A DNA stretch of 42,239 nt from an uncultured Candidatus Altimarinota bacterium (GTDB taxonomy: Bacteria; Patescibacteriota; Gracilibacteria; CAIRYL01). The DNA is taken from contig CAMZKJ010000010.1 of assembly GCA_947311245.1 (NCBI GenBank), positions 1 through 42,239 of the forward strand, in the 5' to 3' direction. Both the position numbers and the translations under genes were made by a program. Below, piece by piece: positions 16,334 to 42,239 of this stretch. Below the pieces are notes generated by a model that saw only the letters and a program-made list of their open reading frames with translations, made no database searches and had not been told where the DNA came from. Position 1 is the first letter of the stretch. Each line of letters begins with the position of its first letter.

Positions 16334-19300
16334 ATGTTTTTTTTAAAAGTAGCTACAGATATATTTTTATATATAGTAAAAAAACTATATATAGTATGGT
16401 TTTATATATGTAATTTTTATATTTATAGGCCAATTATTTCCTCTGTAATTATTGCATCGTTAGTTATTCCAATATTTTTACCATGGGGGAATTTACATGT
16501 ATTGTCGAAATATACAGAAAATGAACATGGTTTAATAACTCTTTTTGTAGATGAAGATGTATATAATAATGAAGATTTGCGTTCAAAAATAACGCGATAC
16601 GCTCTTGATGTTCAGAATTCATATGCAGATACAAAGGTTGCTATTATATCGGTAGAAAAAAGTAAAAATTCAGAAGAAATATATAGAATTTTAGAAAATT
16701 TTTATTTTGAAGGACAGGAAGTTGGTGATGATACTTTCTTTTTAAAAGGCTTAATTATTATTGGAGATGTTGTATTGCCTACTTTGAAATCTGAAATCGG
16801 TAATATGCCATCTGTTTTTCCATATACAGATTTTGAAAATCCTTCTTTTATTTGGGATATAGAAGATCAAAAATGGATAGAAAATCCTGAAGTGAATGCG
16901 ACAAGTGCAGAAATTTGGCATGGAGTTATTCCTGGTACTTTTGATGAGCTTGGAAAATTTTTTGACAAAAATCATGCCATGCATGAAAAGCTTTATTCGG
17001 GAAATGAAGAATTTTCAGATATTGTGAGAGATGAAATTCTCTTTTGGGATAGTAAGGCTGAAAAAAAATCTATGCAAAAAATATTATTATCGCAATATGA
17101 AAATGCACAAGATTTAAATACTGATCGAAAATCTTTTCGCTATAATACAGAGTTATTAAAGGCTTTATATAGTGGTATGCTTTCTGAAGATAGTTTCGCC
17201 GATGAGATTCCTACTGAAGTAAAAGAAATGTATCCGAAAGATGCTGATGGAAATCAAAATATTTTTTTAGAAAATATAGATGATATAAAATCTGTTATTG
17301 CAGGGAAAGGGGTTGATAAAACTCCAGATAGATATACTAAAGATTCAATTGAAAAAATTTTACCAGGCTATGCAGAAGTTGTAAAAACCTATGAAACAGA
17401 GACTCAAAAATTTATTAAAAATACAGGAAGGTGGGATCAAACTTCGACTGATTCCATTCCTGAAATGATTTCAGTTATAGATGAATATGTAGCAAATGAA
17501 ATTCAAAAAATAAATAAAGTATACGAAAAAGAGGCAAGTGAATATTTTAAAACGATAGATTCAAATACTGAAATTGCCTCGCATTATGGGAACACAACAT
17601 ATACTTCCGTGTATGTAGCTGACATTATTGAGAGAGAAGGGACGTATAAATTAATGAATTATTTATTAGAAGATAATGAGTTTACGAAGCACTTAGATAT
17701 ATTGCGAAATCTTTTTCGATGGGTTCATATGGCAGAGCTGCATGATCAAAATGAAAAAATTAAATCATTAACAATAGCCTTAGAAACAGAATTAAAAGGT
17801 GTAAATGCATTTGATGAATTTAAAGATAAAGATTTAGATTTAATAAAGAGACTTTGGAAGCATCTTGTAGATGAAGCAGTAGATATATCGAATTTGCATG
17901 ATTATTGGAAGTATAATGGTTTTCACTTTGGCTATAATTATATAAATGGGAGAAGAGTTATTGATATTGAGAGCCCTAAAGACTGTAGTTTGTATAGAGG
18001 TGTGTATCAGTATGATGATTTGTATTCGGATACAAAGACTTTTTTTGATTGGCAAAAAGAAAAACAAGAGAAAAAATATTCTAATGATATGTCTAGTTTA
18101 TATATTCCTGATTTTGTGCCTGAAATAAAATCAAAATCGGTTAAGTTTACCACATTGAATGATGTAAAAATTTTTAAAGATGGACATAAAACAAATGGTA
18201 AATTTTTGAATAAGCTACTTTCTAGGTGTTCTGTTTTAACAAATGAAGAAGATAAAGAGAATTGTCTTTCGCGAGAGTCTAAACTCCCTGTGTTTTCATG
18301 GGATGGTGGAGAACAGGTATATGAAAAAGGAGATATAGATAAAAGAGAATTTCGTCCAAATATTTTTTCAAGTGAATTGTATAAAAATGTTGAAAATATA
18401 GAAACTTCTGCATTGGCATGTCAAAATATTTCAATGTTAGGATATACGGCAGACGTATTCCCTTTTGTTTCATTTATAGAGCCAGAGACGCTTTTAAAAA
18501 CAATATCTACATTTATATTACATAATAATCCATCAACATTACCAAATTCTGAACAGTCTCTTTTGAATGTTGTAAAAAGTTTATATTCGAGAGCTCTTGC
18601 ATCAAATAGAATTATTTATGCAGATTTATTAAATGGATTAACTGTTAAAAAATATATAAAGCAAACTTTTCCAAACTTTTTTCGATATCAATATAAGAAA
18701 GTAATTGAGTCTCCATTATTAACACAGTATGAACTCAGTAAAATTGCAGAACAAAATGCAAAAGAAATGATAATTGGAAATGGAGCATATAATAGAAAAC
18801 AAGCGCTAAAAGATACTCATGGTGTTTTTCGAAATAGTCCTGTTTTTAAGGCAAGACGGGTGGTTTCGTTTAATGAAGATAATGGTGATATTGTCACAAG
18901 TAATTCATTTATTACTGAGGATGATTTTGGGAAAATTCCAGCAGAATATGAATTAGAGATTTTGGAACAGATGCAAAAGCTTATTGTAGATAACAAGGTT
19001 TGTAATAAACTCGATAAATTTGATGAGGATATATTACAGCCTGCTATGGGGGAATATTATGAAGAGTTTTTTAAAAAATATACAAATATTCCAAAGGCGG
19101 CGTATAAAGCATTTATTTATAACAACATAAACGATAAAAATGCATATTTTAATCATGGTGGGATTATACATGAGGTTTCAAAAAAAACATGGGAATATGA
19201 AATTGCTCAAAAGCTTATTAGTTGTGATGATTCTTCAGCGAAAATTATAGAGGATGTAAAAACATATATTGCAAAAGAGAAATCATATAGTGAAGTAGGA

Positions 19301-22300
19301 AAAGAAAAGCTTAATTTAGATTCTTATTTTTTACCTGACTTATTAACTGTAAAAAATACATCGATTGATTCAGATTTAAATAAAATAATAGATTTTTCAA
19401 AAATAACTACCAATAATAATTCAGGAGTATATTGGCAATGGGATCCACTTACAACAGAAATAACACCAGAGTTTGCTGATCTTAGTGCATTACCTAAAAA
19501 CTTTATAATTCCACAATCTGTAGGGAAAATATATTTTGAAACATTTGAAGTTGTTCCAAATGTAAATGATGTTTTTTATAAAAATGTAAAAGTATCTGGA
19601 GCGTCATTTTTAGATTTAAGAAAAAATTCTGATGATAAATCAGATGTATTGCTTGAAATATTTGGAAGATCAAAAATGCAAGATGAAGAAGTAAAGGTTA
19701 TACCTATTGATTATATGGGGAAAAAAGAAGTGAAAAAAAAGGCTATGATTGATGGACAGTCTCCTTATATTCCAGGTCAGAGACCAAGTAATATTATTGA
19801 TGAAGAAATGTTTTATGATATGTATCTGCGATTTAACAGCTCGGATAAAGAATCGTTGAAGCACTACCAGTTTCTTGTAAATAAAGACTTATCAAAAAAT
19901 ATTCCAAAGCCAAATATCTATCCGGAAGAGATATTTTATATAAACCTTAAAAATACAGATAAAAATAAATATGATAAAAAATTAGCGGAACAAGATTTCT
20001 TGTTTTATTGGAATACCATGACTGCTCAGGATAAACATGACTCAATTCAAAAGATTTTACTTTCAAAAAATCAAGAGGTTATACCTCCTTTGCAAGAAAA
20101 AAATTTATCGAAGCCGTATGCCTATGCACATTTGAATATAGAGGGTGAGAATTCTCCAGAATGGACTGGTGAAGAGGATATTTCTTCTTCATTATTAGGA
20201 ATTGCAACTGCTGATTCTGAGAGGGGGACTTCTGGGGAAAGAGTATCTATTAATAGAGCATCAGAAACTGTATCAGAAGAGGGAGAAGAAGGGAGAAATG
20301 AAGGAACAACAGGAGATTCAAAAAATACAAATAGTAATGTTGATGAAAATGGTACAGAGCAAGATGAAACATGTGGTCCCATGGACGGAGTACCTTTTTA
20401 TAAATGGCTAGATGCTATTGAGTGTTGGCTTGATACAATGAAAGATTTACCAGATTTAGGTTCGAAGAAAAAATGTAATCTTAGTATAGAAGAATTTAAT
20501 AAACTCAAAGAAAGGACTGATGTCGATACTAAAAATCCGGTTGAAACAATTGAAATTTCTGCAAGTATTGACCCCCTGTTGCCAAATGTAGAAAATAAAA
20601 TTATTATTCGTTTTAAAACAAAAGAAGATAAATTGGCCTATGGCCATGATATTCGCTTTACTGTAGATCTTGAAAATGCAGAAATGCGAGATATTATAAA
20701 TGATTATGATAAAAATAAAGACGGATATCAGTTAATAAATAGGACGGGGCAAGAGACTATTGAAATTATTCCAAATGATACTGTTGAAAATATTACAATA
20801 CATGTAACTCTTTTTGATGATATTTTAGAAAAACAACAAGAATTTTCAGTTATTCCAAATGGATTAGATGTACTGCAATTAATTAAAATTCCTGATGAAG
20901 AAAAAATAGAAAATGGAGTAAAAATGTATGGGCTAAAAGTTGTGTCACCTATAGATTTTAAAAGTTTTGAGGGAGATATATCGTTGTCTGTTTCTCCGCA
21001 TGAAGAAGGTGTTTTGGAAAAAAAGACTATAAATCTAAATGAATTATTTCATGTGGCCGTTCGAACAGATGATACAGTTGTAGTAACTGCATCTATGCGT
21101 GGAACACAACCAGTCTCTATTGATTTAACTGGATCAGATACACTAAAAAATACTATCGCTACGATTCAATTACCAGAACTTCTTCCTACTATGGATGTAA
21201 ATTCTGTGTATTACTACACTCCTCGATATTTGAATGCAATGGGAAGTATTGTAGAAAAGCCAGAAGATTTAGACCTTTATATTGAAAAAGGCGATAGCAT
21301 AGAAGATTTTGAAAAATTTAAAATAAGTCTCGTTGAAAATAATACGCGGGTAAAAATTGAAACACACGGAATTACTGGGGATATTTCTTTTGTATTAGGT
21401 ATTGGGAATGGTGAGACAAAAGTGTTAGATACATTTGTTCCTTTTATTGGAGAAAAAACATCGATTGAAACATATGAATCATTAAATCTGAATGCTTTGT
21501 ATGCAAGTATTACAGGGTTAAAAAAATATGAAATAGGACTTAATAATCACTTTGCAACAAAAATGCTGCATTCTTCTGATAATTTAAATATTATTACGAC
21601 ACAAATTACAGCACCAAAAGTAAAAAAACCAGTCGCTAGAATTTTTTCAAATGGTGGTATAAAAACATATTCATCGGGGTATAGAGCTAATCTTTTGAAT
21701 TTATCACCTCCAGAAATCGGAATTTTTGATAAAAAAGAATTACGATATAAGGGGCAGTTTCGCCTAAAAATGCCAAATTTTACTACTTCAGATGTATACG
21801 CTACAGCACCTGTATTAGAAAAAAAAGGAATATTTTTTGAAAAATTAAATACATCAAAAGATTTTATAGTACAAAAAACTAATACAGGGATTGTTGTTCA
21901 GCTTGAAAATCTTGATATTGTTCGTATTGATTTATTAGGAAATATTGAAATATTGGATAATAGTTTTCGCTTTGAAATAGAGGAAGATAAATTTTTATCG
22001 GGTTTTTCTTTGCTTCTTAAAAAGGCTAAAAGTGAAAAAATATATGGTCGAGTTACTATAAGAGGAGCGTCTTTTACTTCTATTTTAGAAAGTATTTGGG
22101 TAGAAAAAAAAGTAGGAGATAATTATTTTATAACAGGAACAGACCCAGTTATTGTTGATTTATTTCCAATGTATCAAACGTCTTTTTCTCAGTCAAAAAT
22201 GGGAACAGGTTTTCAAAAAACAGAAAAATATGTTTTAGAATATGCATCTGGGGCTACGGTTGGTGAGGCTACGAAGTCTTCTGCCGATTTATTTATGATT

Positions 22301-25300
22301 AACTTAGGAGATCCTTCAATTTCGATTCCACCACCAATCGAAAATGGGACAGGTTTTAATCAAACTGTTGGAAAAAAAATATGGGAAGAAGAAGAAGGGG
22401 TAATTCAAAAAATAATCCCACTTGATTTTGATGGAGATGGGAGTACTGATATGGCTGAGGTGAGATCGGATGGGTATATAAATATATTATTAAATACGGG
22501 AAATAATAGTGGGAATATAAAACAATGGGGGAAAGGAGTGAGAATTGACCCTAAATATAGAGAGATTTCTGTGTTAAAAATTAAAGAAAATAATGAAGAT
22601 GTTTATGATGATTTAGTGTATTTGGATAGGTTTGGAAAGTTTCATCATATAAAAAATATTGATGGAAATTTATCACTTGTTGATATGCCTGAATATTTTC
22701 CAAGTGGTGTATTTTCTACTGCAAAAATTGAGGATATTAATAATGATGGTTTTAGTGATATTGTAGCAATTACGGAATTTGGTGATTTGAAAATTTGGTA
22801 CGGAGATGAGCATTACTTTATGTCAGAGCCTGTATTAATTGATAATTATGGATTTTCTATTCCTGAACCTAATGAATTAAAAAAATCAGTATTAATAAAT
22901 TTTAAAAATATTGAAACAGTTCCAGATTTAGCGGGGAGTATAAAAAGAATTTCATATTTATCAGGAATATTAGATGAAGAAAAAAGTAAGAAAAAAACAC
23001 AATCAGCAGTGAGTGGTAAAACAACAAATAAAACAACAAATCCAAAATCAACAAAAATCAAGAATTTAATAAAATTAAGTAAATCTAACAATTGGGCAAA
23101 TATATTTAAAAAATATAATAAGAGAGATATTTCAGATATTATTAGTAATGATTATGACAATGGTTTAGGGACTGGAATATCAGAAAAGCCATTTATTGCA
23201 GCGGATATTTTAAATCAATCGTTAGATGTCTCAAAAACAATGATTCCCCAAAATGAGGATTATGATAAAGAGAAAAGTGTGATAGGTCGTAAATATATTA
23301 CACAAATTACTCTAAAATCTTTAGATAAAAAACCTATAACATTTACTATTGCAGATTTATACGGAGAATTGATGGATATAAATAGGACTTCTGTCATCTG
23401 TAAATATAAAGATGGAAAAGATAATGAGTGCGGAGAGAGATATGCAGGTGTTGTATTTCCTACTATTTCGCGTGGAGTAATTTTTGAAAATATAACATTA
23501 TCTCCTAATCAGGAAGTGTATCTTACATATATTTCTGAAATTAAAGAAGCTCCATTACTTACATTAAATCTTGTAAATATAAATAAGAAGGTAGATGATA
23601 TTATCGATTTTATTGTAATGAGTTCGGAGAATAACTGGAAATTGAACTATGTGAGTGATAATACAGATTCGAGTGTTCCATATAAAAAAGTGCTTCCCGA
23701 GGTAATAGAACCTACTCCTTTGGAAAATGTAATAAGTAATGGAATAGATATAAAAATTTTATCTGAGTTACTCGATACAATTGAAATTGATGATGAAATT
23801 TTAAAGAATATATTATCGAGAATAAAAATAATTAACGAAGAACAACGAAAGTTGAGTGAAGAGGGAGTTCCAATGGCTCGTTATTTGTATAAAAAAGGAA
23901 TTAAGAAGTTAAAAAATAAATTTAAGGATTATTTATCAGAAGTTTTTGCAGAATTATTGGAAAAAAATAATACAGATGAAATAAATAAAGAAAATATTGA
24001 TTCACTTATTCGGCAGTTTCTGGAATGGGACAAAGTTGATGAAAATGGAGATATAATTCCTATTACAAAGAAGGATATAGAGAAGTTGTTGAATAATTCT
24101 TTAATGGCTGAAAAATCTTTTGGTATACTTGAAAGATCTGGAGTGACAACGGTTGTTAAAAATTTAGAGAATGATTCTGATGAAGATGGAGTACCAAATA
24201 GTTGGGATGATAATTTTGATGAAGATTTGGAAAAATTAGAAGGTATTATGGATGATACTATTGATTTTTTAGCATCTTGTAATGCTGGAGGGTGTTTAAA
24301 TATGCCAATGAATTTTGCATTTTTGACTACAGGAAAGGTAAATATGGCACCTCAAATGAATCAAGCATTTACAGCGGCAGAAGGTGCTATTGGAAGTTTG
24401 TTAGAGGATTCTGGAGTTTCTATTTCAGGAAGTGCTGTAAAAAAACTTGCTACTGATGGTGTTGGGTCATATACAATGGATCAACCATTTGTAATGACAA
24501 TTATTAATTTTTGGAATTCGGGATTTTGTTTCTTGAGAAAATGTAAGCAGGTGTGTCCTAAAGGGTTGTGTTCAATTCCATATGACTTAGGATTTACTTT
24601 ATCAAAATTTAGATTTTATTTGTCTCCCACTTTAACTGGTGGACTTGGATTTGTAATTTGTACGGGCTCTGGAAACTCTACTACTGACCCAGGAGGGAAA
24701 TGTTTTATTCAGGCTATTGAAGGTGATTTAGGTGGTATTTGTAAAAAATTATCAGCTAAAATAAATCAAGCTACTCATATATCGCTTGGTTCGGGCAGTA
24801 CTGTATTTCAAGTTGAAGGGGATGTCGGTGGTGCATCTTCGGATACTGCGACATATAGTTTGGCAAATATTAATACGAGTATTCCTACTTCACAAAATGT
24901 AAGGCTTAATTCTGAGGGGTATTTTGGGAGATGGTTAAATAGACAATTTGAAGAAATTGGGGCTATGTTTACAGTTCCTTCTTTAACTATTTTGTATCCA
25001 GATGTTTCAAATACTTTTTTTGATACTGATGGTAATCGTAGTAGTTTTTCTCTTACTGCAGGAATGGTAGATAATGACAAATATAAAAATTCAAGTGAGG
25101 CATTTTCTAAAAATATTTCAAATGTTACATTTGAAAATCAATGGACTGATCAAAAAAATGAAGAAGGAACGCATGAAAAAGATAGGGAAAAAGGAAATTT
25201 AGATGCATCTAAATCGAATATAAATTCTGTTTATGATTATGTAACCCCAAAGGGAAAAAATAAAGAAGTATTAAATTATACAGCGAAATCAATTAGTGAT

Positions 25301-28300
25301 TTTTATAGAATGGTGGAAAGTGTACCATTGATAAATGTAAGAAGAGAGGAAGTGCGTTTAAAATATCCATCGCTTTCTCGTAAAGAACTTCTTTCAAAAA
25401 TTGATAATTTGGAAAATGTAATTACAAGTTTTACAGAAGAATTAGAAAATTTTAAAGAATCTGGAAAAAATTGGCCACAGAATAGGTGGAATGAACATCG
25501 AAAAATTGTGAAAAAAGCAGAACGATTTTTAAAAGATATAACCAATTTAAATAATTCTTTATATTTCTATAAAGATGAAGCTGGAAATTTAATTCAAGAT
25601 TTTGATTCTCAAATAAGTCGTTATATTTATTCAATTGTATGTTATATAGATGCAATTACAGATTTAACGGGTGGATGGTTTATGAAAAATAAAATTAGAT
25701 ATGAAAAATGGTTAGAATTTTTTGATACGATTGCTGAATTAATTAAAATGTATAAAAAGCTTCCAGATATTTTAAATGGATATCAATCTTCGTGTACACA
25801 ATGTCGTGCAACAAAATATGATTCGAGTAGTAAAATGATTAGTGTTCTGGGAAGTTTTTTTCCAGAGCCTCCTATCGTTCGTTTTCCAAGATTTCCCGAT
25901 ATTGTCTTAGATGTCTCACAAATTAATGCGGCGATTACTGTAACAATTCCTAAAATTATATTTAGACCTGTGCAGGTAAAGATTCCAAATATTCCCAATG
26001 TATTGCTTCCAAATGTTCCGACATTAAATGTGAATGTTAAGTTCCCGAAAATACCGAATTTACCAACTTTTGAGCTTCCAACACTGCCTGAATTTCCAGC
26101 TATCGATATGCCTCGATTACCAGATATTCCGCCTCCACCGAAACTTCCGAATATTCCGTCTGAATTACTATCGGTGATGAAAGTGGTAGAAAAAGCATTA
26201 TATTTATATTGTATTATTGTGCGTCAAGGGATATTTTTGCATGACGAAACAACGGCTATGTCTGTTGTGGAAGTGTTGACAAATAGACCTATTAATCCGT
26301 TAAGTATGGATTTTATTTCGAAAGATTTTCCAGATATTGTAATTTCTGATATTGCTGAAATTGAAGTGATAGCTGAAGTAAATTTAGAAAAAGATACTGG
26401 AGCAATTTCTAAAAAAGTACATGAATTTACAGATGAAATAAATAAAGGAACTACAGATTTTATCAAAGAAGGGAATCGTAATTTAAGTGAACATGTAGAT
26501 AAATATGGAGATCCTTTGGATACATCAGATAATAAATATATTAAAATAATTGAAAGAGAGGTTGATGACGCACAATCAGATATAGATAGAGAAGTGACTG
26601 ATAAAAACAGGAATAATATTAATAATTTAGATGATGATGTAAAAAATGGGTTAGATAATATTCAAGATCATATAGATGATCAAAAAGAGAGAGATCAGAA
26701 AAATATAGATGAAGCCGCGAATAATACACAATCCTCAAAAGCATATTTTAATGCAGTTATTTCAAAAGATATGCAAAAACTTAAATCTACATTTGAAAAG
26801 GTTAATACACCTGCAAATTATATTTCAGTAACTGAATTACGGAAAAAAATGAAATTACCATTATTTCTATCAGAAACTTCAGAAAAACATGATGTATTAG
26901 AACAGTATAAAAATATTCGATCAGAAATTTCTGATATTCAGGAATATTATGCATATCAAGAAAAAATTATTGTAAAGAATAATAATGACTTTTTTGCACT
27001 TATGGAGAAAAACAAAACGATAGATTTTCCAGAGCAAAAAATATATGCAAAATCTGAAGCTGATAAGGCAAGAGATATTGCATCTCTTAATTTAGAATTA
27101 GATATTGATGCACAAATGCCACAACGAAATGATGATGAAGGGGTATTTATTCAGTCTAAAGATGGTTTGACTACGATTCGAATGACTGCATATACTGCGG
27201 AATCTCGTCTTATAAATTCATTTTTTACAGCAGATATGAATTCTGATGGTATAGATGATATCGTGTATGCAACACCGTATGAAATTTATATAAAATATGC
27301 AGAAAATGTACAAAAATATAAAAAATTAAAATATAACAAAAAAGATGTATATGTTCCAAAAACAGGAAATCCGAATTCTATAGAAGTCTTAGATTTTGAT
27401 GAAATCTTACCAGAATTTTTATCACCTAAAAATTTAACAGTATTTGGAGATGGGAAAAAATTATCTATTTCTATTTTGCCTGAGCCAAAAGAGTTAATAT
27501 CCGGAATACTGTATACAATAGATGATGCAATTACATATGAACAACGACAAAATGGAAATGTTCGAAAATATATATTTCAATTATTGAAAGAACCATTTGA
27601 TGCAGCATTTGTAAAATATGAAGGTTTGACAGAGGCTGATATTGATTGGGATAAAGAAGTTGGAGAAAATTTTATTATTATTGCTGGTGAGAAATTTTTT
27701 ATAGAACCAAATTCTATAGTACGAATAGATAAAATGAATTATGAAGAGCTTGAAACCTTTATTCCCTTTAATGAAGTGAAATCATTGCAGGCACGTTGGA
27801 TTACCGCTGATGGAAAATTAAGTAATTATGCAAGTCATGACTTACTCTTTAATACGCAGGCAAATGATATACAATCGCCAATTCTATTGGAAGATATTAG
27901 AGAGGAAAAATTAATGTATAAAAAAAGTACGATTTCTCTTGATGGAATATTAGATCTTGAAACTGGGAATTCGGATGTATCTTGGGATACAGATAATGAT
28001 GGAGTATATGAAACATTAGGAGATGAATTTTTAACGCAAATTCATGAAGAACTCTTTGAAAAAGAAATAGTTCCTTTTAGAGTTGTTGATGAATTTGGAA
28101 ATCAGACAAAAAATACAGCATATGTAAATTTTGTTCCACCGGCAGTTCTTGTGGATAGTGCAACAGATGGAGAGGTATTGGGACATGTAAAACCTAGATA
28201 TGGAAATGTTCCAGTTGTGCTTTTACGAGAAAGATTTGGAGTCTTGAAAAAAATGGATGGTCCTCAACGAACAGATGATCTTGGGAATTATAAATTTACG

Positions 28301-30649
28301 GGACTAGATACTGTATCAGAAAATTTAGCTATTTTAAAAAACGAATCAGGTACTATTATTGGAACTGTAGATAAAAGAGGGCAGTTATCTGTAGATAAAA
28401 ACTCTGAAAATTCTGAGAATTATGAAATTAAATTATTAGTTGGTGATAAATATTTACCATTACGACAAGTATTGGTAAATACGGTAACTGGGAAAGTAGT
28501 TGCGACACTTATATTGAAATCAGATAGTACATATAGCACAAAATTTTTAAAAGATATACAAAGTTTTTCAAGTCTTACAGATAGAAATAATAACAAAATT
28601 GATATTTCTCAATATAATAATGCTGTTTTCGTAACAGATAATAATCTGATCGATAATTTTGTTTTTGGACAAATGCCACTCGATGCACCTGATAATGCTG
28701 GAGGAGGAGTTATTTTTGATAAAATTACACAGAAACCAATGGTTATGATATATAGAGATGGAAATATAAGATTTTTTGAAAGTTATAAAAATACATTATC
28801 TATTCGTCAAAAAAATATTATATTTACAAATACAGAAACAAATAAAGAAGAAACAAAGGTTGTCGTCGAAATTTTACATTCGGGATCGGTAATTTTTGAA
28901 GCATTATTAGACCTTCAAAAGAATCAGGTTAATATAGATTTTGATACTGTTGCAAGTAATACTGTTTTACAGCATGAGAATACTATAAGTAAAAATTATA
29001 GTTTTATAGATACTACAAGATTTCTTTCATCTGTTGATAATCTTATTCCAAACTCAAACAATACATCATCTGAAGAAGTAAAAGAATTTCCATTTACAGA
29101 TATTTCAAAAGAAAATAATGCCAAAGTGTATACTGCTGTAAAAAATCTCTATGAAAAAAATATGATTTCTGGATATGAAAATAATAAATTTAAACCAAAT
29201 CAAAAAATAACTCGTGCCGAATTTGTACATGAAGCGCTAGCTGTTACAAAATGTTTAGATTGTATAAACCCTTCGGAAGCGGAAAAAAATAAATATTATA
29301 AACCTTTTGCATTTACAGATATTCAGCCAAAATCGTGGTATGATTTTTGTATCTCAAAAGCAAAAGAAATTTCAATGATTAATGGGTATAAAAATGGAGA
29401 ATTTAAACCAAATCAAAATATTACGCGTGCAGAAGCAGTTGCAATTTTGTTACGACAGGCCGATATTCCATTGCAACAAACTCTCGATACAAAAATTACA
29501 GAGAGTATTGGGGATTTAGATCCATCTCTATGGTTTTATAAAGAAATGATAACAGGTATTAATCTTGGTTTAATTACCCCAACTCTTGGATTTTCATTTC
29601 CAAATCAATACATAACAAGAGGGGAATTCGCGATTATGTCAGATTTAATATTTGTATTGCGTGATTGTAGAGAAGTAGATAGTGATAACGATGGAATTTT
29701 TGATTACTGGGAAGAATATTATGGTTCAGATATTTTTGATAAAAATAGTATTCCAAATAATTTTAATAATTTAAAAAATCCGAGAGATGAGCTTCTTTCT
29801 CCAGTTCCAGAAAATACTAAAGATGCTATCCCTTCTGTTTTAACAGGTACAACAGGTACAACAGATACAACAGATACAAATAATAATAATATTCCAGATA
29901 AATTTGAAGAAAATTTAGGGTATGGAGATTTAGATTTTGATAACGATGGTATTGTGAATTATTATGATTATTCTACAGTATCTCTTGTAAAAACATTGCA
30001 ATCATTGCAATCGTTGTTTAACGAAACTGAAACAATAAGCCTTTTAGAATTTATAGATACTAAAAACTATGAAATTTTAAAAACACTTTTAGAAACGTAT
30101 GAATATTCTGAAATTAAAGAATTTATTGAAAATAAAACAATTACGAGTGTTATAAATCGAATAACGAAAGAAAATGTTACAACTTCAGAAGAAAAAATTG
30201 ATATTCAGACAATTGCTAGAATTTTAAATGAAATAGTCTACAATCATGAGACTCTTTCTGATGAATTTACAGATAATAATGAAAATGGGATTATTGATCA
30301 GTTGGAAGATGAGTATAAAGATAAAGATAAAGATAAAGATAAAGATAAAGATAAAGATAAAGATAAAGAGGAGATTTCAGATATTAATATATCTGGATTA
30401 TGTCCTTTGGTTCCAGAAGATTATGATGGTATTGATGATGAAGATGGATGCCCTGAATTGGAAAATGCAAAAGAAATATTTACGAATAATATTTCTACAT
30501 TATTCGTAAATAATACAAATGAATGTAACTTTGTCGACTATGCAGATGAGTTTAGAGAAGGAGATAAAATTAAGGTTGTAATTTTGTCTCCCGATGAAAA
30601 ATATTTATATAAAGAAAGTGGGATGGTTGAGGTAAAAGAACAAAAGTAA
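16334..30649 (+). CDS. Giant 4,771-aa SLH-anchored surface protein
   Basis: One uninterrupted 14.3-kb frame. Residues ~33-52 form an N-terminal membrane or signal-anchor helix. Residues ~65-200 (LITLFVDEDVYNN, LIIIGDVVLPTL, FPYTDFENPSFIWD, AEIWHGVIP) suggest a caspase/gingipain-like fold, with no Cys-His pair I can assign. FG-GAP-like calcium loops follow: DFDGDGSTD (~2031), DINNDGFSD (~2133), DSDEDGVPNSWDD (~2615), DMNSDGIDD (~3635). Cys-rich patches lie near 2650 and 2730 (CFLRKCKQVCPKGLC). Residues ~3183-3280 are Pro-periodic (PNIPNVLLPNVPTLNV). Helical regions surround 3410-3470. An SdrB-like module is near 3946. Three SLH domains (~4252-4440, ending TRAEF, TRAEA, TRGEF) would bind the cell-wall polymer. 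After them come type-3 calcium repeats, a KD repeat and DGIDDEDGCPEL. It follows the FecR/GT-C pair after a 149-bp gap. Function unknown; most likely a surface fibre or S-layer-linked protein. Confidence 0.9.
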   Translation: MFFLKVATDIFLYIVKKLYIVWFYICNFYIYRPIISSVIIASLVIPIFLPWGNLHVLSKYTENEHGLITLFVDEDVYNNEDLRSKITRYALDVQNSYADTKVAIISVEKSKNSEEIYRILENFYFEGQEVGDDTFFLKGLIIIGDVVLPTLKSEIGNMPSVFPYTDFENPSFIWDIEDQKWIENPEVNATSAEIWHGVIPGTFDELGKFFDKNHAMHEKLYSGNEEFSDIVRDEILFWDSKAEKKSMQKILLSQYENAQDLNTDRKSFRYNTELLKALYSGMLSEDSFADEIPTEVKEMYPKDADGNQNIFLENIDDIKSVIAGKGVDKTPDRYTKDSIEKILPGYAEVVKTYETETQKFIKNTGRWDQTSTDSIPEMISVIDEYVANEIQKINKVYEKEASEYFKTIDSNTEIASHYGNTTYTSVYVADIIEREGTYKLMNYLLEDNEFTKHLDILRNLFRWVHMAELHDQNEKIKSLTIALETELKGVNAFDEFKDKDLDLIKRLWKHLVDEAVDISNLHDYWKYNGFHFGYNYINGRRVIDIESPKDCSLYRGVYQYDDLYSDTKTFFDWQKEKQEKKYSNDMSSLYIPDFVPEIKSKSVKFTTLNDVKIFKDGHKTNGKFLNKLLSRCSVLTNEEDKENCLSRESKLPVFSWDGGEQVYEKGDIDKREFRPNIFSSELYKNVENIETSALACQNISMLGYTADVFPFVSFIEPETLLKTISTFILHNNPSTLPNSEQSLLNVVKSLYSRALASNRIIYADLLNGLTVKKYIKQTFPNFFRYQYKKVIESPLLTQYELSKIAEQNAKEMIIGNGAYNRKQALKDTHGVFRNSPVFKARRVVSFNEDNGDIVTSNSFITEDDFGKIPAEYELEILEQMQKLIVDNKVCNKLDKFDEDILQPAMGEYYEEFFKKYTNIPKAAYKAFIYNNINDKNAYFNHGGIIHEVSKKTWEYEIAQKLISCDDSSAKIIEDVKTYIAKEKSYSEVGKEKLNLDSYFLPDLLTVKNTSIDSDLNKIIDFSKITTNNNSGVYWQWDPLTTEITPEFADLSALPKNFIIPQSVGKIYFETFEVVPNVNDVFYKNVKVSGASFLDLRKNSDDKSDVLLEIFGRSKMQDEEVKVIPIDYMGKKEVKKKAMIDGQSPYIPGQRPSNIIDEEMFYDMYLRFNSSDKESLKHYQFLVNKDLSKNIPKPNIYPEEIFYINLKNTDKNKYDKKLAEQDFLFYWNTMTAQDKHDSIQKILLSKNQEVIPPLQEKNLSKPYAYAHLNIEGENSPEWTGEEDISSSLLGIATADSERGTSGERVSINRASETVSEEGEEGRNEGTTGDSKNTNSNVDENGTEQDETCGPMDGVPFYKWLDAIECWLDTMKDLPDLGSKKKCNLSIEEFNKLKERTDVDTKNPVETIEISASIDPLLPNVENKIIIRFKTKEDKLAYGHDIRFTVDLENAEMRDIINDYDKNKDGYQLINRTGQETIEIIPNDTVENITIHVTLFDDILEKQQEFSVIPNGLDVLQLIKIPDEEKIENGVKMYGLKVVSPIDFKSFEGDISLSVSPHEEGVLEKKTINLNELFHVAVRTDDTVVVTASMRGTQPVSIDLTGSDTLKNTIATIQLPELLPTMDVNSVYYYTPRYLNAMGSIVEKPEDLDLYIEKGDSIEDFEKFKISLVENNTRVKIETHGITGDISFVLGIGNGETKVLDTFVPFIGEKTSIETYESLNLNALYASITGLKKYEIGLNNHFATKMLHSSDNLNIITTQITAPKVKKPVARIFSNGGIKTYSSGYRANLLNLSPPEIGIFDKKELRYKGQFRLKMPNFTTSDVYATAPVLEKKGIFFEKLNTSKDFIVQKTNTGIVVQLENLDIVRIDLLGNIEILDNSFRFEIEEDKFLSGFSLLLKKAKSEKIYGRVTIRGASFTSILESIWVEKKVGDNYFITGTDPVIVDLFPMYQTSFSQSKMGTGFQKTEKYVLEYASGATVGEATKSSADLFMINLGDPSISIPPPIENGTGFNQTVGKKIWEEEEGVIQKIIPLDFDGDGSTDMAEVRSDGYINILLNTGNNSGNIKQWGKGVRIDPKYREISVLKIKENNEDVYDDLVYLDRFGKFHHIKNIDGNLSLVDMPEYFPSGVFSTAKIEDINNDGFSDIVAITEFGDLKIWYGDEHYFMSEPVLIDNYGFSIPEPNELKKSVLINFKNIETVPDLAGSIKRISYLSGILDEEKSKKKTQSAVSGKTTNKTTNPKSTKIKNLIKLSKSNNWANIFKKYNKRDISDIISNDYDNGLGTGISEKPFIAADILNQSLDVSKTMIPQNEDYDKEKSVIGRKYITQITLKSLDKKPITFTIADLYGELMDINRTSVICKYKDGKDNECGERYAGVVFPTISRGVIFENITLSPNQEVYLTYISEIKEAPLLTLNLVNINKKVDDIIDFIVMSSENNWKLNYVSDNTDSSVPYKKVLPEVIEPTPLENVISNGIDIKILSELLDTIEIDDEILKNILSRIKIINEEQRKLSEEGVPMARYLYKKGIKKLKNKFKDYLSEVFAELLEKNNTDEINKENIDSLIRQFLEWDKVDENGDIIPITKKDIEKLLNNSLMAEKSFGILERSGVTTVVKNLENDSDEDGVPNSWDDNFDEDLEKLEGIMDDTIDFLASCNAGGCLNMPMNFAFLTTGKVNMAPQMNQAFTAAEGAIGSLLEDSGVSISGSAVKKLATDGVGSYTMDQPFVMTIINFWNSGFCFLRKCKQVCPKGLCSIPYDLGFTLSKFRFYLSPTLTGGLGFVICTGSGNSTTDPGGKCFIQAIEGDLGGICKKLSAKINQATHISLGSGSTVFQVEGDVGGASSDTATYSLANINTSIPTSQNVRLNSEGYFGRWLNRQFEEIGAMFTVPSLTILYPDVSNTFFDTDGNRSSFSLTAGMVDNDKYKNSSEAFSKNISNVTFENQWTDQKNEEGTHEKDREKGNLDASKSNINSVYDYVTPKGKNKEVLNYTAKSISDFYRMVESVPLINVRREEVRLKYPSLSRKELLSKIDNLENVITSFTEELENFKESGKNWPQNRWNEHRKIVKKAERFLKDITNLNNSLYFYKDEAGNLIQDFDSQISRYIYSIVCYIDAITDLTGGWFMKNKIRYEKWLEFFDTIAELIKMYKKLPDILNGYQSSCTQCRATKYDSSSKMISVLGSFFPEPPIVRFPRFPDIVLDVSQINAAITVTIPKIIFRPVQVKIPNIPNVLLPNVPTLNVNVKFPKIPNLPTFELPTLPEFPAIDMPRLPDIPPPPKLPNIPSELLSVMKVVEKALYLYCIIVRQGIFLHDETTAMSVVEVLTNRPINPLSMDFISKDFPDIVISDIAEIEVIAEVNLEKDTGAISKKVHEFTDEINKGTTDFIKEGNRNLSEHVDKYGDPLDTSDNKYIKIIEREVDDAQSDIDREVTDKNRNNINNLDDDVKNGLDNIQDHIDDQKERDQKNIDEAANNTQSSKAYFNAVISKDMQKLKSTFEKVNTPANYISVTELRKKMKLPLFLSETSEKHDVLEQYKNIRSEISDIQEYYAYQEKIIVKNNNDFFALMEKNKTIDFPEQKIYAKSEADKARDIASLNLELDIDAQMPQRNDDEGVFIQSKDGLTTIRMTAYTAESRLINSFFTADMNSDGIDDIVYATPYEIYIKYAENVQKYKKLKYNKKDVYVPKTGNPNSIEVLDFDEILPEFLSPKNLTVFGDGKKLSISILPEPKELISGILYTIDDAITYEQRQNGNVRKYIFQLLKEPFDAAFVKYEGLTEADIDWDKEVGENFIIIAGEKFFIEPNSIVRIDKMNYEELETFIPFNEVKSLQARWITADGKLSNYASHDLLFNTQANDIQSPILLEDIREEKLMYKKSTISLDGILDLETGNSDVSWDTDNDGVYETLGDEFLTQIHEELFEKEIVPFRVVDEFGNQTKNTAYVNFVPPAVLVDSATDGEVLGHVKPRYGNVPVVLLRERFGVLKKMDGPQRTDDLGNYKFTGLDTVSENLAILKNESGTIIGTVDKRGQLSVDKNSENSENYEIKLLVGDKYLPLRQVLVNTVTGKVVATLILKSDSTYSTKFLKDIQSFSSLTDRNNNKIDISQYNNAVFVTDNNLIDNFVFGQMPLDAPDNAGGGVIFDKITQKPMVMIYRDGNIRFFESYKNTLSIRQKNIIFTNTETNKEETKVVVEILHSGSVIFEALLDLQKNQVNIDFDTVASNTVLQHENTISKNYSFIDTTRFLSSVDNLIPNSNNTSSEEVKEFPFTDISKENNAKVYTAVKNLYEKNMISGYENNKFKPNQKITRAEFVHEALAVTKCLDCINPSEAEKNKYYKPFAFTDIQPKSWYDFCISKAKEISMINGYKNGEFKPNQNITRAEAVAILLRQADIPLQQTLDTKITESIGDLDPSLWFYKEMITGINLGLITPTLGFSFPNQYITRGEFAIMSDLIFVLRDCREVDSDNDGIFDYWEEYYGSDIFDKNSIPNNFNNLKNPRDELLSPVPENTKDAIPSVLTGTTGTTDTTDTNNNNIPDKFEENLGYGDLDFDNDGIVNYYDYSTVSLVKTLQSLQSLFNETETISLLEFIDTKNYEILKTLLETYEYSEIKEFIENKTITSVINRITKENVTTSEEKIDIQTIARILNEIVYNHETLSDEFTDNNENGIIDQLEDEYKDKDKDKDKDKDKDKDKEEISDINISGLCPLVPEDYDGIDDEDGCPELENAKEIFTNNISTLFVNNTNECNFVDYADEFREGDKIKVVILSPDEKYLYKESGMVEVKEQK
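30315..30368 (+). repeat. 6-bp tandem repeat x9 (Lys-Asp)
   Basis: Nine copies of ATAAAG encode an alternating Lys-Asp run near residue 4662-4679 of the giant protein. The unit is a multiple of three, so slippage would alter length without breaking the frame. Confidence 0.95.
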
Positions 30650-39229: not shown

Positions 39230-40750
39230 ATGAATGAAATAATTGTACGATATCCGCCTTCTCCAACAGGACTTTTCCATATTGGAACAGCACGAACCGT
39301 GTTATATAATTTTCTTTTTGCAAAAAATAAGCAAGGAAAAGCCATAATGAGAATGGAAGATACCGATAAAACTCGATCTGAAAAACAATATGAAGAAAAT
39401 ATTTTATCTGGAATCCAAAAACTTGGAATGGCGTGGGGAGTAGATTGGTTAAGTTCTACAGATGAAGTGGTGTATCAAAGTGAGAGAGCGGGAGTATATA
39501 AAAAATATCTAGAAAAACTTTTAGCAGAAGATAAAGCATATTACTGTTTTTCGACTCCAGAAGAATTAAACATTTTACGAGAAAAAGCACAAAAAGAAAA
39601 AAAAGCATTTCGGTATCCTGAAACATGGAGAAATGCAGATAAAACATTGGTACAAGAAAAACTGGACGCAGGTGAAAAATCGGTTATTCGGTATAAACTT
39701 CCAAAAGATATTTCTGAAATTACATTTACAGATGCAGTTCGTGGTGAAGTTACAATTAAACTTACAGAGCTTGATGATTTTGTAATTGCAAAAAATTTGG
39801 ATACCGCTTTGTATAATTTTTGTGTAGTGATAGATGATAATGATATGAAAATTTCTCATGTTATTCGTGGAGAAGACCATATTTCAAATACACCAAAGCA
39901 AATTTTATTATTCAAAGAATTTGGGTTTAATATTCCAACATTTGCACATTTACCGCTTATTTTAAACGCGGATAAATCAAAACTTTCAAAACGAAAAAAT
40001 AAAGTTTCGGTAGATGATTATTTATCAGATGGGTTTTTGCCAGAAGCTCTTGTAAATTTTTTAGCACTTTTAGGGTGGAATACGAGTGATGAACAAGAAA
40101 TTTTTACAATGGAAGAACTTATAGAAAAGTTTAGTTTAGACCGAGTGCATAAAGGAGGCGCAATTTTTGATATTGAGAAATTAAAATGGATTAATCAAGA
40201 ATGGATTAAAAAAATGGATATTTCAGAGTTTTATACGAGAGTTTTGGAATATTGGAATAGTGAAGATGTAAAAAATTCTGAAAAATATAATTTTGATATT
40301 TCTCTATTTGGAGATTTAAATAATGAAAAAAATATTCTCTTTTTACGAGAAGCACTCGCTTTGGTGAAAGATAGAACAAAACAACTTTCTGAAGTATTTG
40401 AAAATTTAGCACTTTTTTATACAGACGATGCAAGTCTTGAATATTCAACAGATATTTATTTTCATAAAAAAATGAAAACGAGTAGAGAAACAGCGGTAGA
40501 GTCGTTGGAATTTGCAAAAAATATAATAGAAAATTTAGATGATAATTTTGAATTTACAGCTGAGAATTTAAAAAATCTATTTATTGAAAAAATTAAAGAA
40601 GCAGAATTTAAAAATGGATACATTTTGTACCCGTTGCGTGTGGCTCTTTCTGGTTCAGAGTTTTCACCAGGAACATTGGAACTTCTTGAAATTTTTGGAA
40701 AAGAACGAAGTATAGTCCGAATTAATAGAGGTATAGATTTATGCAAATAG
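39230..40750 (+). CDS. gltX: Glutamyl-tRNA synthetase
   Basis: A 506-aa protein of ordinary bacterial length. It charges tRNA-Glu with glutamate (and perhaps tRNA-Gln if a transamidation route is used; no gat genes are visible). The class I signatures are plain: YPPSPTGLFHIGTARTVLYN contains the HIGH-type motif HIGT (17-20), MRMEDTDKTRS is the conserved family loop, VIRGEDHISNTPKQ follows, and KLSKRKNKVSV (about 250) is the KMSKS motif. The C-terminal anticodon-binding region is helical and ends ILYPLRVALSG...GTLELLEIFGKERSI. It has its own candidate promoter. The T-box that follows faces away from it and so does not control it. Confidence 0.97.
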   Translation: MNEIIVRYPPSPTGLFHIGTARTVLYNFLFAKNKQGKAIMRMEDTDKTRSEKQYEENILSGIQKLGMAWGVDWLSSTDEVVYQSERAGVYKKYLEKLLAEDKAYYCFSTPEELNILREKAQKEKKAFRYPETWRNADKTLVQEKLDAGEKSVIRYKLPKDISEITFTDAVRGEVTIKLTELDDFVIAKNLDTALYNFCVVIDDNDMKISHVIRGEDHISNTPKQILLFKEFGFNIPTFAHLPLILNADKSKLSKRKNKVSVDDYLSDGFLPEALVNFLALLGWNTSDEQEIFTMEELIEKFSLDRVHKGGAIFDIEKLKWINQEWIKKMDISEFYTRVLEYWNSEDVKNSEKYNFDISLFGDLNNEKNILFLREALALVKDRTKQLSEVFENLALFYTDDASLEYSTDIYFHKKMKTSRETAVESLEFAKNIIENLDDNFEFTAENLKNLFIEKIKEAEFKNGYILYPLRVALSGSEFSPGTLELLEIFGKERSIVRINRGIDLCK

Positions 40751-40827: not shown

Positions 40828-40856
40828 TTTGTTTAAAATTTATTTTTTGATATACT
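40828..40856 (+). promoter_or_regulatory. Promoter of the T-box transcript
   Basis: TTTGTT at 40828-40833 and TATACT at 40851-40856 with a 17-bp spacer. Transcription would begin near 40863, giving a leader of about 290 nt. Confidence 0.55.
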
Positions 40857-40862
40857 TTTCAT

Positions 40863-41140
40863 AGAACAATTCTTTAAAAACGGCTATCAACCGAAAAGCG
40901 TGTATTTTTATACAGAATATACACAGAGAATCTTGAGAAAAATATTTTTTAGAAATAAAAGATATGAGACCTCAACGGTTTTGATTAGATGTAAAAATCT
41001 GGTTTGCCTGTTAGCAAAACAATTAAGAGAAAAGTAAAAAAGTGAGATGGTACCGCTGATATTTTGAAAAAAAAATTAGCTCTCGCAAAAAAATAAGTGT
41101 AAATATTTATTTTTTTTGTGGGAGTTTTTTTATTTTTTTT
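40863..41140 (+). promoter_or_regulatory. T-box riboswitch leader (tRNA-sensing antitermination)
   Basis: Most of the 402-bp gene-free stretch is this leader. Its end shows the full T-box switch. GTGAGA (41042-41047) pairs with TCTCGC (41081-41086), and GCTGA (41055-41059) pairs with TTAGC (41076-41080). Exactly seven unpaired bases lie between the two helices, TGGTACC (41048-41054), the T-box bulge that binds the tRNA NCCA end. The same 3' strand can instead form a terminator. Upstream, 40884-40893 can pair with 40976-40988 to close a ~100-nt domain where Stem I belongs, and small hairpins lie at 40987-41000 and 41002-41020. The UGGU bulge predicts a tRNA with discriminator A. I could not identify the specifier codon with confidence. 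The next gene is the pentapeptide-repeat membrane protein. Confidence 0.85.
41080..41140 (+). terminator. T-box terminator
   Basis: CTCTCGCAAAAAAA (41080-41093) pairs with TTTTTTTGTGGGAG (41111-41124), with G-U pairs in the lower part, followed by T7, A and T8. It is mutually exclusive with the antiterminator because both use 41080-41086. Confidence 0.85.
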
Positions 41141-41152
41141 AAGAATTGTCAA

Positions 41153-42239
41153 ATGAATGAAGTAAAAACACCAACGGAAACAGAGGAAAAGAAAGAAATT
41201 GAGGGAATCGATTTTATTATTGCTCAAGGTGATAATGATAAAGAACCAAGAAAATATTTTGATGGAGATGAGATTATTGTTGGTAAAAAAAAATATGAGA
41301 TTATTACTCAAAAAGAATATATTCATTCTATAAAGGGAAAAGATGAAGTAATATTTGCTGATAAATATTTAAAAGGAATTAATCTCTCTATTTATGATGC
41401 ATGTAATCCTGTTAGTCCAGAAGAACGCCACTTAAAGGAAACAGAAGAACACGAATGCGCAGAGAGAGGATGTGATTGGGGTGATTTTGCTCCCGCGGGA
41501 ATTAAAAAACTTATTTTCCAAAATTGTTACTGCTATGGACTTAGGTTTAGTGATTTAAATCCTTTATATGCAAAAGTTTCTTTTATAAATAGTGATTTAA
41601 GGTATTCAAATTTTAGTGGAGGTCTTTTATCAAGTATTCATGATGATAGCTTCTCACTTTATTCTTTTGTTAATTCTAATCTATCTAATTCAACATTTAC
41701 TAATGCAACATTGAATGGTGTAAGTTTTATAAAGTCAAATTTAAAAAATACTGATTTCAAAGGAGCAAAACTATTAAAAACATTGTTTTTAGATGTCCAA
41801 AATATTTCAACTCTTTCGAAAGACCAACTTAAAGAAGCTATTTTTACAGAAAAAGAAAAAGAATTATTTAAAGAAAATGAACAAACCAAAAAAAAAATAA
41901 AAGAAATTGGGAAAGAGCACACCACTTCGCTAGTACAAGGTTTTGAAACTTTAAAAGAAGACTTTAAAAAGGAAGAAAAAAATTGGTTTTGGTCTGTTCT
42001 TTTAAGTTTTTTATTCTTGCTTTGTTTGATTATTTGGGTTGTTTTTAGGCAATTAAATATTCCAATTGTTGAACAATTTTTAATTACTATTAATTTATCT
42101 GATTTTCATACTTTATATATAACTGTTTTACCGTTAATAATTTTATTATCTACTTTTATTTATTTCTCTGTTCACCAATACTCAAAATCAAAAAATTTAC
42201 GAATAGAAAATCAGAATAAAATTGCGTTAATTCACGGAT
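41153..42239 (+). CDS. Pentapeptide-repeat membrane protein, C-terminus cut by window edge
   Basis: The frame opens at ATG 41153 (MNEVKTPTETEEKK) and runs past the right edge, at least 362 codons. Residues 1-90 are acidic and unrecognised. A short Cys-containing part follows (HECAERGCDWGDFAP, FQNCYCYGLRF). Residues ~135-205 are degenerate pentapeptide repeats of the A[DN]Lxx type: FINSDLRYSNFSGG, FVNSNLSNSTF, FIKSNLKNTDFKGAKL. A Lys/Glu coiled coil spans ~220-275, then come two membrane helices (~281-299, SVLLSFLFLLCLIIWVVF, and ~322-342). The downstream end NLRIENQNKIALIHG begins another unit. It lies 12 bp after the T-box terminator and so should be switched by uncharged tRNA. It uses more C-ending codons (TGC, CAC, CCC, CGC) than neighbours. 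Function unknown. Confidence 0.8.
   Translation, partial: MNEVKTPTETEEKKEIEGIDFIIAQGDNDKEPRKYFDGDEIIVGKKKYEIITQKEYIHSIKGKDEVIFADKYLKGINLSIYDACNPVSPEERHLKETEEHECAERGCDWGDFAPAGIKKLIFQNCYCYGLRFSDLNPLYAKVSFINSDLRYSNFSGGLLSSIHDDSFSLYSFVNSNLSNSTFTNATLNGVSFIKSNLKNTDFKGAKLLKTLFLDVQNISTLSKDQLKEAIFTEKEKELFKENEQTKKKIKEIGKEHTTSLVQGFETLKEDFKKEEKNWFWSVLLSFLFLLCLIIWVVFRQLNIPIVEQFLITINLSDFHTLYITVLPLIILLSTFIYFSVHQYSKSKNLRIENQNKIALIHG

Follow-up and report, generated by a model that had tools for sequence, protein, structure and literature searches.

A predicted tRNA-Ile T-box leader and its probable ileS operon in a CPR bacterium of Gracilibacteria/Peregrinibacteria type

Layout of the leader

The window, which is the whole stretch of 42,239 nucleotides analysed here, comes from an uncultured Candidatus Altimarinota bacterium; the original prediction, made from the letters alone, correctly placed it in a CPR genome. 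Near its end a T-box leader (40829-41138) lies between gltX (39230-40750, PF00749 match) on the upstream side and a pentapeptide-repeat ORF. Elsewhere, positions 16334-30649 are taken up by a single ORF of 4771 aa that has S-layer homology domains towards the C-terminus. The elements of the leader and its first gene are as follows (window coordinates).

40829-40856, + strand: putative promoter; weak -35 TTGTTT (40829-40834), 16-nt spacer, extended -10 TG-A-TATACT (TATACT 40851-40856)
40869-40931, + strand: Stem I; AUUCUUU (40869-40875) pairs with AGAGAAU (40925-40931) as the basal helix, around the specifier hairpin and another, variable one
40881-40893, + strand: specifier hairpin CGG-CUAUCAA-CCG; 7-nt apical loop with AUC (40886-40888), the predicted Ile specifier, followed by a purine
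40900-40905 with 40919-40924, + strand: second, variable Stem I hairpin, on the Stem I 3' strand
40933-40975, + strand: Stem II; UUGAG (40933-40937) folds with CUCAA (40971-40975); apical stem-loop
40974-41019, + strand: Stem IIA/B pseudoknot; AACGG (40974-40978) with CUGUU (41008-41012), UUUUG (40979-40983) with CAAAA (41015-41019)
41042-41086, + strand: antiterminator; GUGAGA (41042-41047), bulge UGGUACC (41048-41054), GCUGAU (41055-41060), AUUAGC (41075-41080), UCUCGC (41081-41086)
41078-41138, + strand: intrinsic terminator; hairpin 41078-41126, T run 41127-41138, overlapping the antiterminator 3' half
41153-42239, + strand: pentapeptide-repeat protein gene (PF00805/PF13599), first after the leader and cut by the contig end

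The antiterminator lies where it had been claimed and has the expected geometry (6 bp, 7-nt bulge, 5-6 bp; fold -12.8 kcal/mol, z -3.8). The terminator that competes with it was likewise recovered (-19.6 kcal/mol, z -6.8). UCUCGC belongs to both, which makes the two structures mutually exclusive. The promoter, also part of the original prediction, is only plausible: its extended -10 (TGnTATACT, 40848-40856) is present and has a counterpart in a same-genus leader, L011 (TTGGTA-17-TATACT, extended -10), but the -35 is weak and a consensus promoter scan of the window did not return it.

Stem I is short and without the distal double T-loop (tRNA-elbow-binding) motif, and its K-turn purines are degenerate in the window. 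The second hairpin, whose sequence is not conserved among relatives, may recall a K-turn within a three-way junction. At the place of the S-turn, Stem II has a purine-rich internal loop (5' AAAA, 3' GAGA). With strands AAAA/UGAGA (UGAGA-C) the window thus has a degenerate S-turn that lacks the canonical GUAGA strand, whereas relatives carry AGAA/GUAGA. The pseudoknot contains a small hairpin (40986-41001) and has AA 40974-40975 in common with Stem II. A clear Stem III is the sole T-box element that was not found in the window leader. A terminator-like site on the minus strand (40881-40893) was set aside as a reverse reading of the specifier hairpin, flanked by A/T by chance.

Conservation, covariation and specificity

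By itself the antiterminator hairpin is moderately unusual. Among 400 first-order Markov windows, three held one as good as that of the window, or ~1% of random windows of the same size and composition, and eight held one in which each arm reached 5 bp or more. Hence, the homologues are decisive. In a nucleotide search, two congeneric species, G001 and G002, proved to carry the leader. The G001 leader is 86% identical over 334 nt, and its contig stops just beyond; that of G002 is followed by a PemK/MazF-like ORF and then the pentapeptide gene. The antiterminator, bulge included, is identical letter for letter in the window genome (G000), G001 and G002, while the flanks and the terminator loop drift. 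Partners in the basal Stem I helix change together (AUUCUUU/AGAGAAU in the window, AUUCUU/AAGAAU in G001, UCCCU/AGGGA in G002), Stem II reads UUGAG/CUCAA versus UUGGG/CCCAA in G002, and the pseudoknot pairs are kept in all three species with GU/AU/GC variation. One further Stem I pairing, CUAUCAACCG with CGGUUUUGAUUAG, drawn from the window alone, was discarded as broken in G001 and G002. The G002 leader (L032/L012) also carries a repeat-like insertion, CTTCCTGAGCCTGTCGAAGG, in the linker between pseudoknot and antiterminator, the place of Stem III elsewhere; it is apparently tolerated.

To reach beyond the genus we used a covariance model (R1) of the three same-genus leaders, extending from the Stem II 3' strand to the antiterminator and leaving Stem I out. 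Over 353 genomes of the class it matched in five genomes of family f7 (E 5e-9 to 6e-6), in all five upstream of ileS. The ileS genes were recognised by the motif PPFATG.PHYGH, with the TIGR00392 profile run on ten close relatives only. A search started from ileS genes gave more leaders, their bulges reading UGGUACC or UGGUAAC, in further families, one of them of the same order, and a second model (R2) added others. The same leader type thus precedes ileS in about 20 other genomes, and nearly all R1 homologues outside the genus lie directly upstream of it; in G036 a RidA-like gene intervenes. The ileS of some class members has in-frame TGA codons, which fits the Gracilibacteria genetic code.

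In the more distant leaders the antiterminator is altered by compensating pairs. Antiterminator and pseudoknot helix B are 95.4% paired over 19 leaders, with 76 double changes (0 of 500 shuffles as good); these counts use the R2 alignment, which is fitted to its own structure, and sliding and shuffling controls are far lower. For the specifier stem, 98.4% of cells are paired and all four pairs show double changes (none of 500 shuffles does as well; 29-56% paired in the sliding control versus 98%). A terminator-like hairpin with a T run was detected in 19 of 29 leaders by an automatic pattern scan and in several more by eye.

The specifier codon, which the original prediction had left unnamed, can be assigned as AUC at 40886-40888. 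All 29 leaders carry this triplet mid-loop (27 recovered by a strict parser, L035 and L107 read by eye), in hairpins 100-190 nt 5' of the bulge whose loops measure 6-7 nt: 7 nt in the window's and f7 families and 6 nt in several further ones of the class. In shuffles the AUC count averages 1.9 and reaches at most 8, and the next commonest trinucleotide reaches 12. Stem I was never included in the covariance model. An alternative specifier (AGA/GAC/ACC) in the internal loop of Stem II was dropped, given the invariant AUC of the apical loop and the ileS gene downstream.

The one tRNA-Ile detected in the window genome has the anticodon GAU and a 3' end ACCA (A73), and so fits both contact sites, the AUC specifier and the UGGU of the bulge. 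Elsewhere in the class, T-boxes before glyS (L111, L117, L121) and thrS (L133, L134) carry UGGA, Gly and Thr tRNAs having U73, and a T-box before an aspS/asnS-like gene (L139 and L141 precede such genes) carries UGGC, matching G73; these gene names were assigned by reading translations, without profile searches. The fourth bulge base mostly tracks the tRNA discriminator, with L141 as the exception (UGGU versus G73). From the AUC specifier we infer specificity for tRNA-Ile.

Overall, structure, conservation within the genus and covariation, together with the AUC specifier and the ileS linkage in relatives, confirm at the level of sequence that the region is a genuine T-box.

Operon context and the regulated gene

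The first gene after the leader encodes a protein with pentapeptide repeats, a likely coiled coil and hydrophobic/membrane segments, and it was originally supposed that control of this membrane protein is what the T-box is for. That is probably wrong. In relatives the leader precedes ileS, and within the same bacterial family the pentapeptide gene occurs inside a T-box-ileS operon, directly before ileS. In G005, of the same family as the window genome, the pentapeptide gene ends ~100 nt 5' of ileS. The T-box of G005 sits at the end of a different contig, which shares 19 nt with the end of the contig carrying the pentapeptide gene and ileS; across the join a single reading frame continues, that of a 262-aa membrane protein. 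Joined in this way, the T-box is followed by the membrane protein, an 85-aa ORF, the pentapeptide protein and ileS, with short gaps throughout; the link from T-box to pentapeptide gene and ileS depends on this AT-rich 19-nt overlap.

The window contig terminates within the pentapeptide gene, and ileS was not found in the window genome assembly (86.7% complete); ileS is therefore most likely the next gene. Within the genus, ileS adjoining the T-box was not seen in G000, G001 and G002, where the contigs break at this point, and in G003 one contig starts inside ileS. Synteny by way of the gene after ileS in G003 was uninformative, as in G000 that gene is found at another place, within a long contig. 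Most simply, the window would hold the first half of a T-box-pentapeptide-ileS operon, and the T-box very probably belongs to the ileS operon, not to the neighbouring membrane protein.

We consider it very probable that the leader is a transcription-attenuating tRNA-Ile T-box heading an ileS operon, with the pentapeptide gene first and ileS past the contig end. Structure, conservation, covariation, specifier, matching tRNA and the ileS linkage in relatives are read from sequence; tRNA binding, switching and ileS as the next gene are what they predict. The AUC in the short Stem I apical loop would pair with the GAU anticodon of tRNA-Ile, a contact that Stem II and the IIA/B pseudoknot may brace. 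With uncharged tRNA-Ile, the ACCA end would pair with the UGGU of the bulge, the antiterminator would form and RNA polymerase would read through; with charged tRNA-Ile, the terminator (41078-41126) would fold and transcription would end. Since uncharged tRNA-Ile would stabilise the antiterminator and charged tRNA-Ile could not, expression of ileS and the pentapeptide protein should rise when isoleucine is short, as expected from the T-box family. The attenuation mechanism and the amino-acid starvation signal of the original prediction are both supported by the sequence.

One could expect instead that a genuine tRNA-Ile T-box was recruited in this genus to control the pentapeptide protein (with PemK/MazF in G002), ileS being located elsewhere or controlled otherwise. 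The pentapeptide gene is indeed first after the leader in the window, a PemK-like ORF is first in G002, and no assembly of the genus physically links ileS. However, within the same bacterial family the pentapeptide gene lies directly before ileS in a T-box operon, the leader occurs before ileS in those roughly 20 other genomes, genes intervening between T-box and ileS are known elsewhere (the RidA-like gene of G036), and the lack of ileS in the whole assembly fits a gap. We judge recruitment unlikely and retain the ileS operon.

A role of the pentapeptide protein as a defence-type effector, also suggested originally, was rejected, as it has no match to a PADLOC defence family. No homologue was found in viral contigs. 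In G002 (contig C7, L012/L003) the PemK/MazF-like ORF (PF02452, E 7e-16) is the first gene after the T-box terminator, before the pentapeptide gene; this position would make a toxin-family protein subject to control by isoleucine.

Relation to known T-boxes and spread in CPR bacteria

In class III T-boxes Stem I is short and has no double T-loop motif, the specifier lies in a 5-6-nt apical loop, and control is mostly translational (PMC10482949). The window leader resembles the class III ileS T-boxes of Nocardia farcinica and Mycobacterium tuberculosis in its short Stem I lacking the elbow-binding double T-loop motif, its apical-loop AUC followed by a purine, its Stem II, IIA/B pseudoknot and UGGU bulge, and its probable ileS target. 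The S-turn strands AGAA/GUAGA of the N. farcinica ileS T-box (PMC7583486) recur in the window's relatives and are degenerate in its genus. Unlike the class III ileS elements, which have a Shine-Dalgarno sequestrator, the window leader has a transcription terminator; it also differs in the 7-nt specifier loop (shared by the window's and f7 families; 5-6 nt in class III), in the extra Stem I hairpin and in its host, a CPR bacterium rather than a member of the Actinobacteria.

The element might then control translation, as the actinobacterial ileS T-boxes do, and not transcription termination. Short Stem I T-boxes without the elbow-binding motif are mostly translational (PMC7583486, PMC10482949), but in the window the antiterminator competes with a strong hairpin and T run, not with a sequestrator of the ribosome site, and terminator-like hairpins recur among the 29 leaders as given above. 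Translational control is therefore very unlikely. Because of the intrinsic terminator, we describe the leader as an apparent class III-like variant rather than plain class III.

With class I T-boxes (RF00230; Bacillus subtilis tyrS, Staphylococcus aureus ileS) the leader shares the antiterminator/terminator switch, the bulge, Stem II, the IIA/B pseudoknot and a probable synthetase target, but it has neither the distal double T-loop motif of a long Stem I nor an internal-loop specifier, and it scores far under the Rfam cut-off. Other CPR T-boxes of the same class (before argG/argF/argB, glyS, thrS and aspS/asnS-like genes) follow the same bulge logic, the fourth base mostly fitting the discriminator; they differ in specificity, and several are nearer class I, at up to 83 bits with RF00230. 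A terminator combined with a Stem I that has no elbow-binding motif is atypical according to reviews, and such a terminator-type T-box appears to be new in detail, as do the T-boxes of the CPR phylum that mostly escape the Rfam threshold. Tentatively, and with slightly more doubt than confidence, we propose that the Ile T-boxes of this bacterial class are a structural class of their own: they would attenuate transcription, lack the elbow-binding motif and have a three-way (k-junction-like) Stem I whose specifier sits in a 7-nt apical loop, some lineages adding pentapeptide and PemK-like proteins under isoleucine control.

RF00230 gives the window leader 11.7 bits against a gathering cut-off of 93, and a whole-window Rfam scan returned nothing at gathering score. 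The original prediction would have counted the lack of a covariance-model match against itself; no match does exceed the cut-off, but the model is insensitive to the architecture of the window leader, and the cut-off is a setting of the library that describes no biological property. All 16 leaders tested fell below it. A match elsewhere in the window's own genome (contig C8) is due to chance, lying over a coding stretch that reads as purL-like in translation. That the region is just the intrinsic terminator of gltX with a chance UGGUACC bulge is scarcely credible: the low RF00230 score, the frequency of AT-rich terminator hairpins here and the ~1% of random windows with an equally good antiterminator favour it, but it is contradicted by covariation, specifier and ileS linkage, and the leader is kept where the upstream gene differs (ung in G001; folD, in the opposite direction, in G002).

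Across the 353 class genomes RF00230 exceeded its cut-off in none, with 36 at E<=0.01. Of 333 genomes sampled across the phylum, 112 have a match at E<=1e-4 and 12 are above the cut-off. Hence, T-boxes are common in CPR bacteria, mostly under the Rfam threshold, and the original view that one would be unusual there does not hold with about a third of the sampled genomes matched. In the open-access subset of the literature that was searched for T-boxes together with CPR taxa, no paper on such T-boxes was found. Within the class, several subthreshold matches lie upstream of ileS, thrS, aspS/asnS-like or arginine-biosynthesis genes. Those before argG, argF and argB-like genes (L126-L132, L135, L138), most with UGGUACC, are likely arginine T-boxes in CPR bacteria. 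Four sites of family f15 (L114, L115, L116, L120) are T-box-like with UGGAACC and have no recognised downstream gene; TGA as a sense codon may hide ORFs in these genomes.

The compact transcriptional form would speak against the idea that fast tRNA capture in terminator-type T-boxes requires the elbow-binding motif; its small size also suits in vitro and structural studies. Most CPR bacteria are uncultured, and very little is known about the regulation of their genes. The Rfam T-box cut-off hides most of their members of the family, and this barely described T-box population would give testable links to host-derived amino acids.
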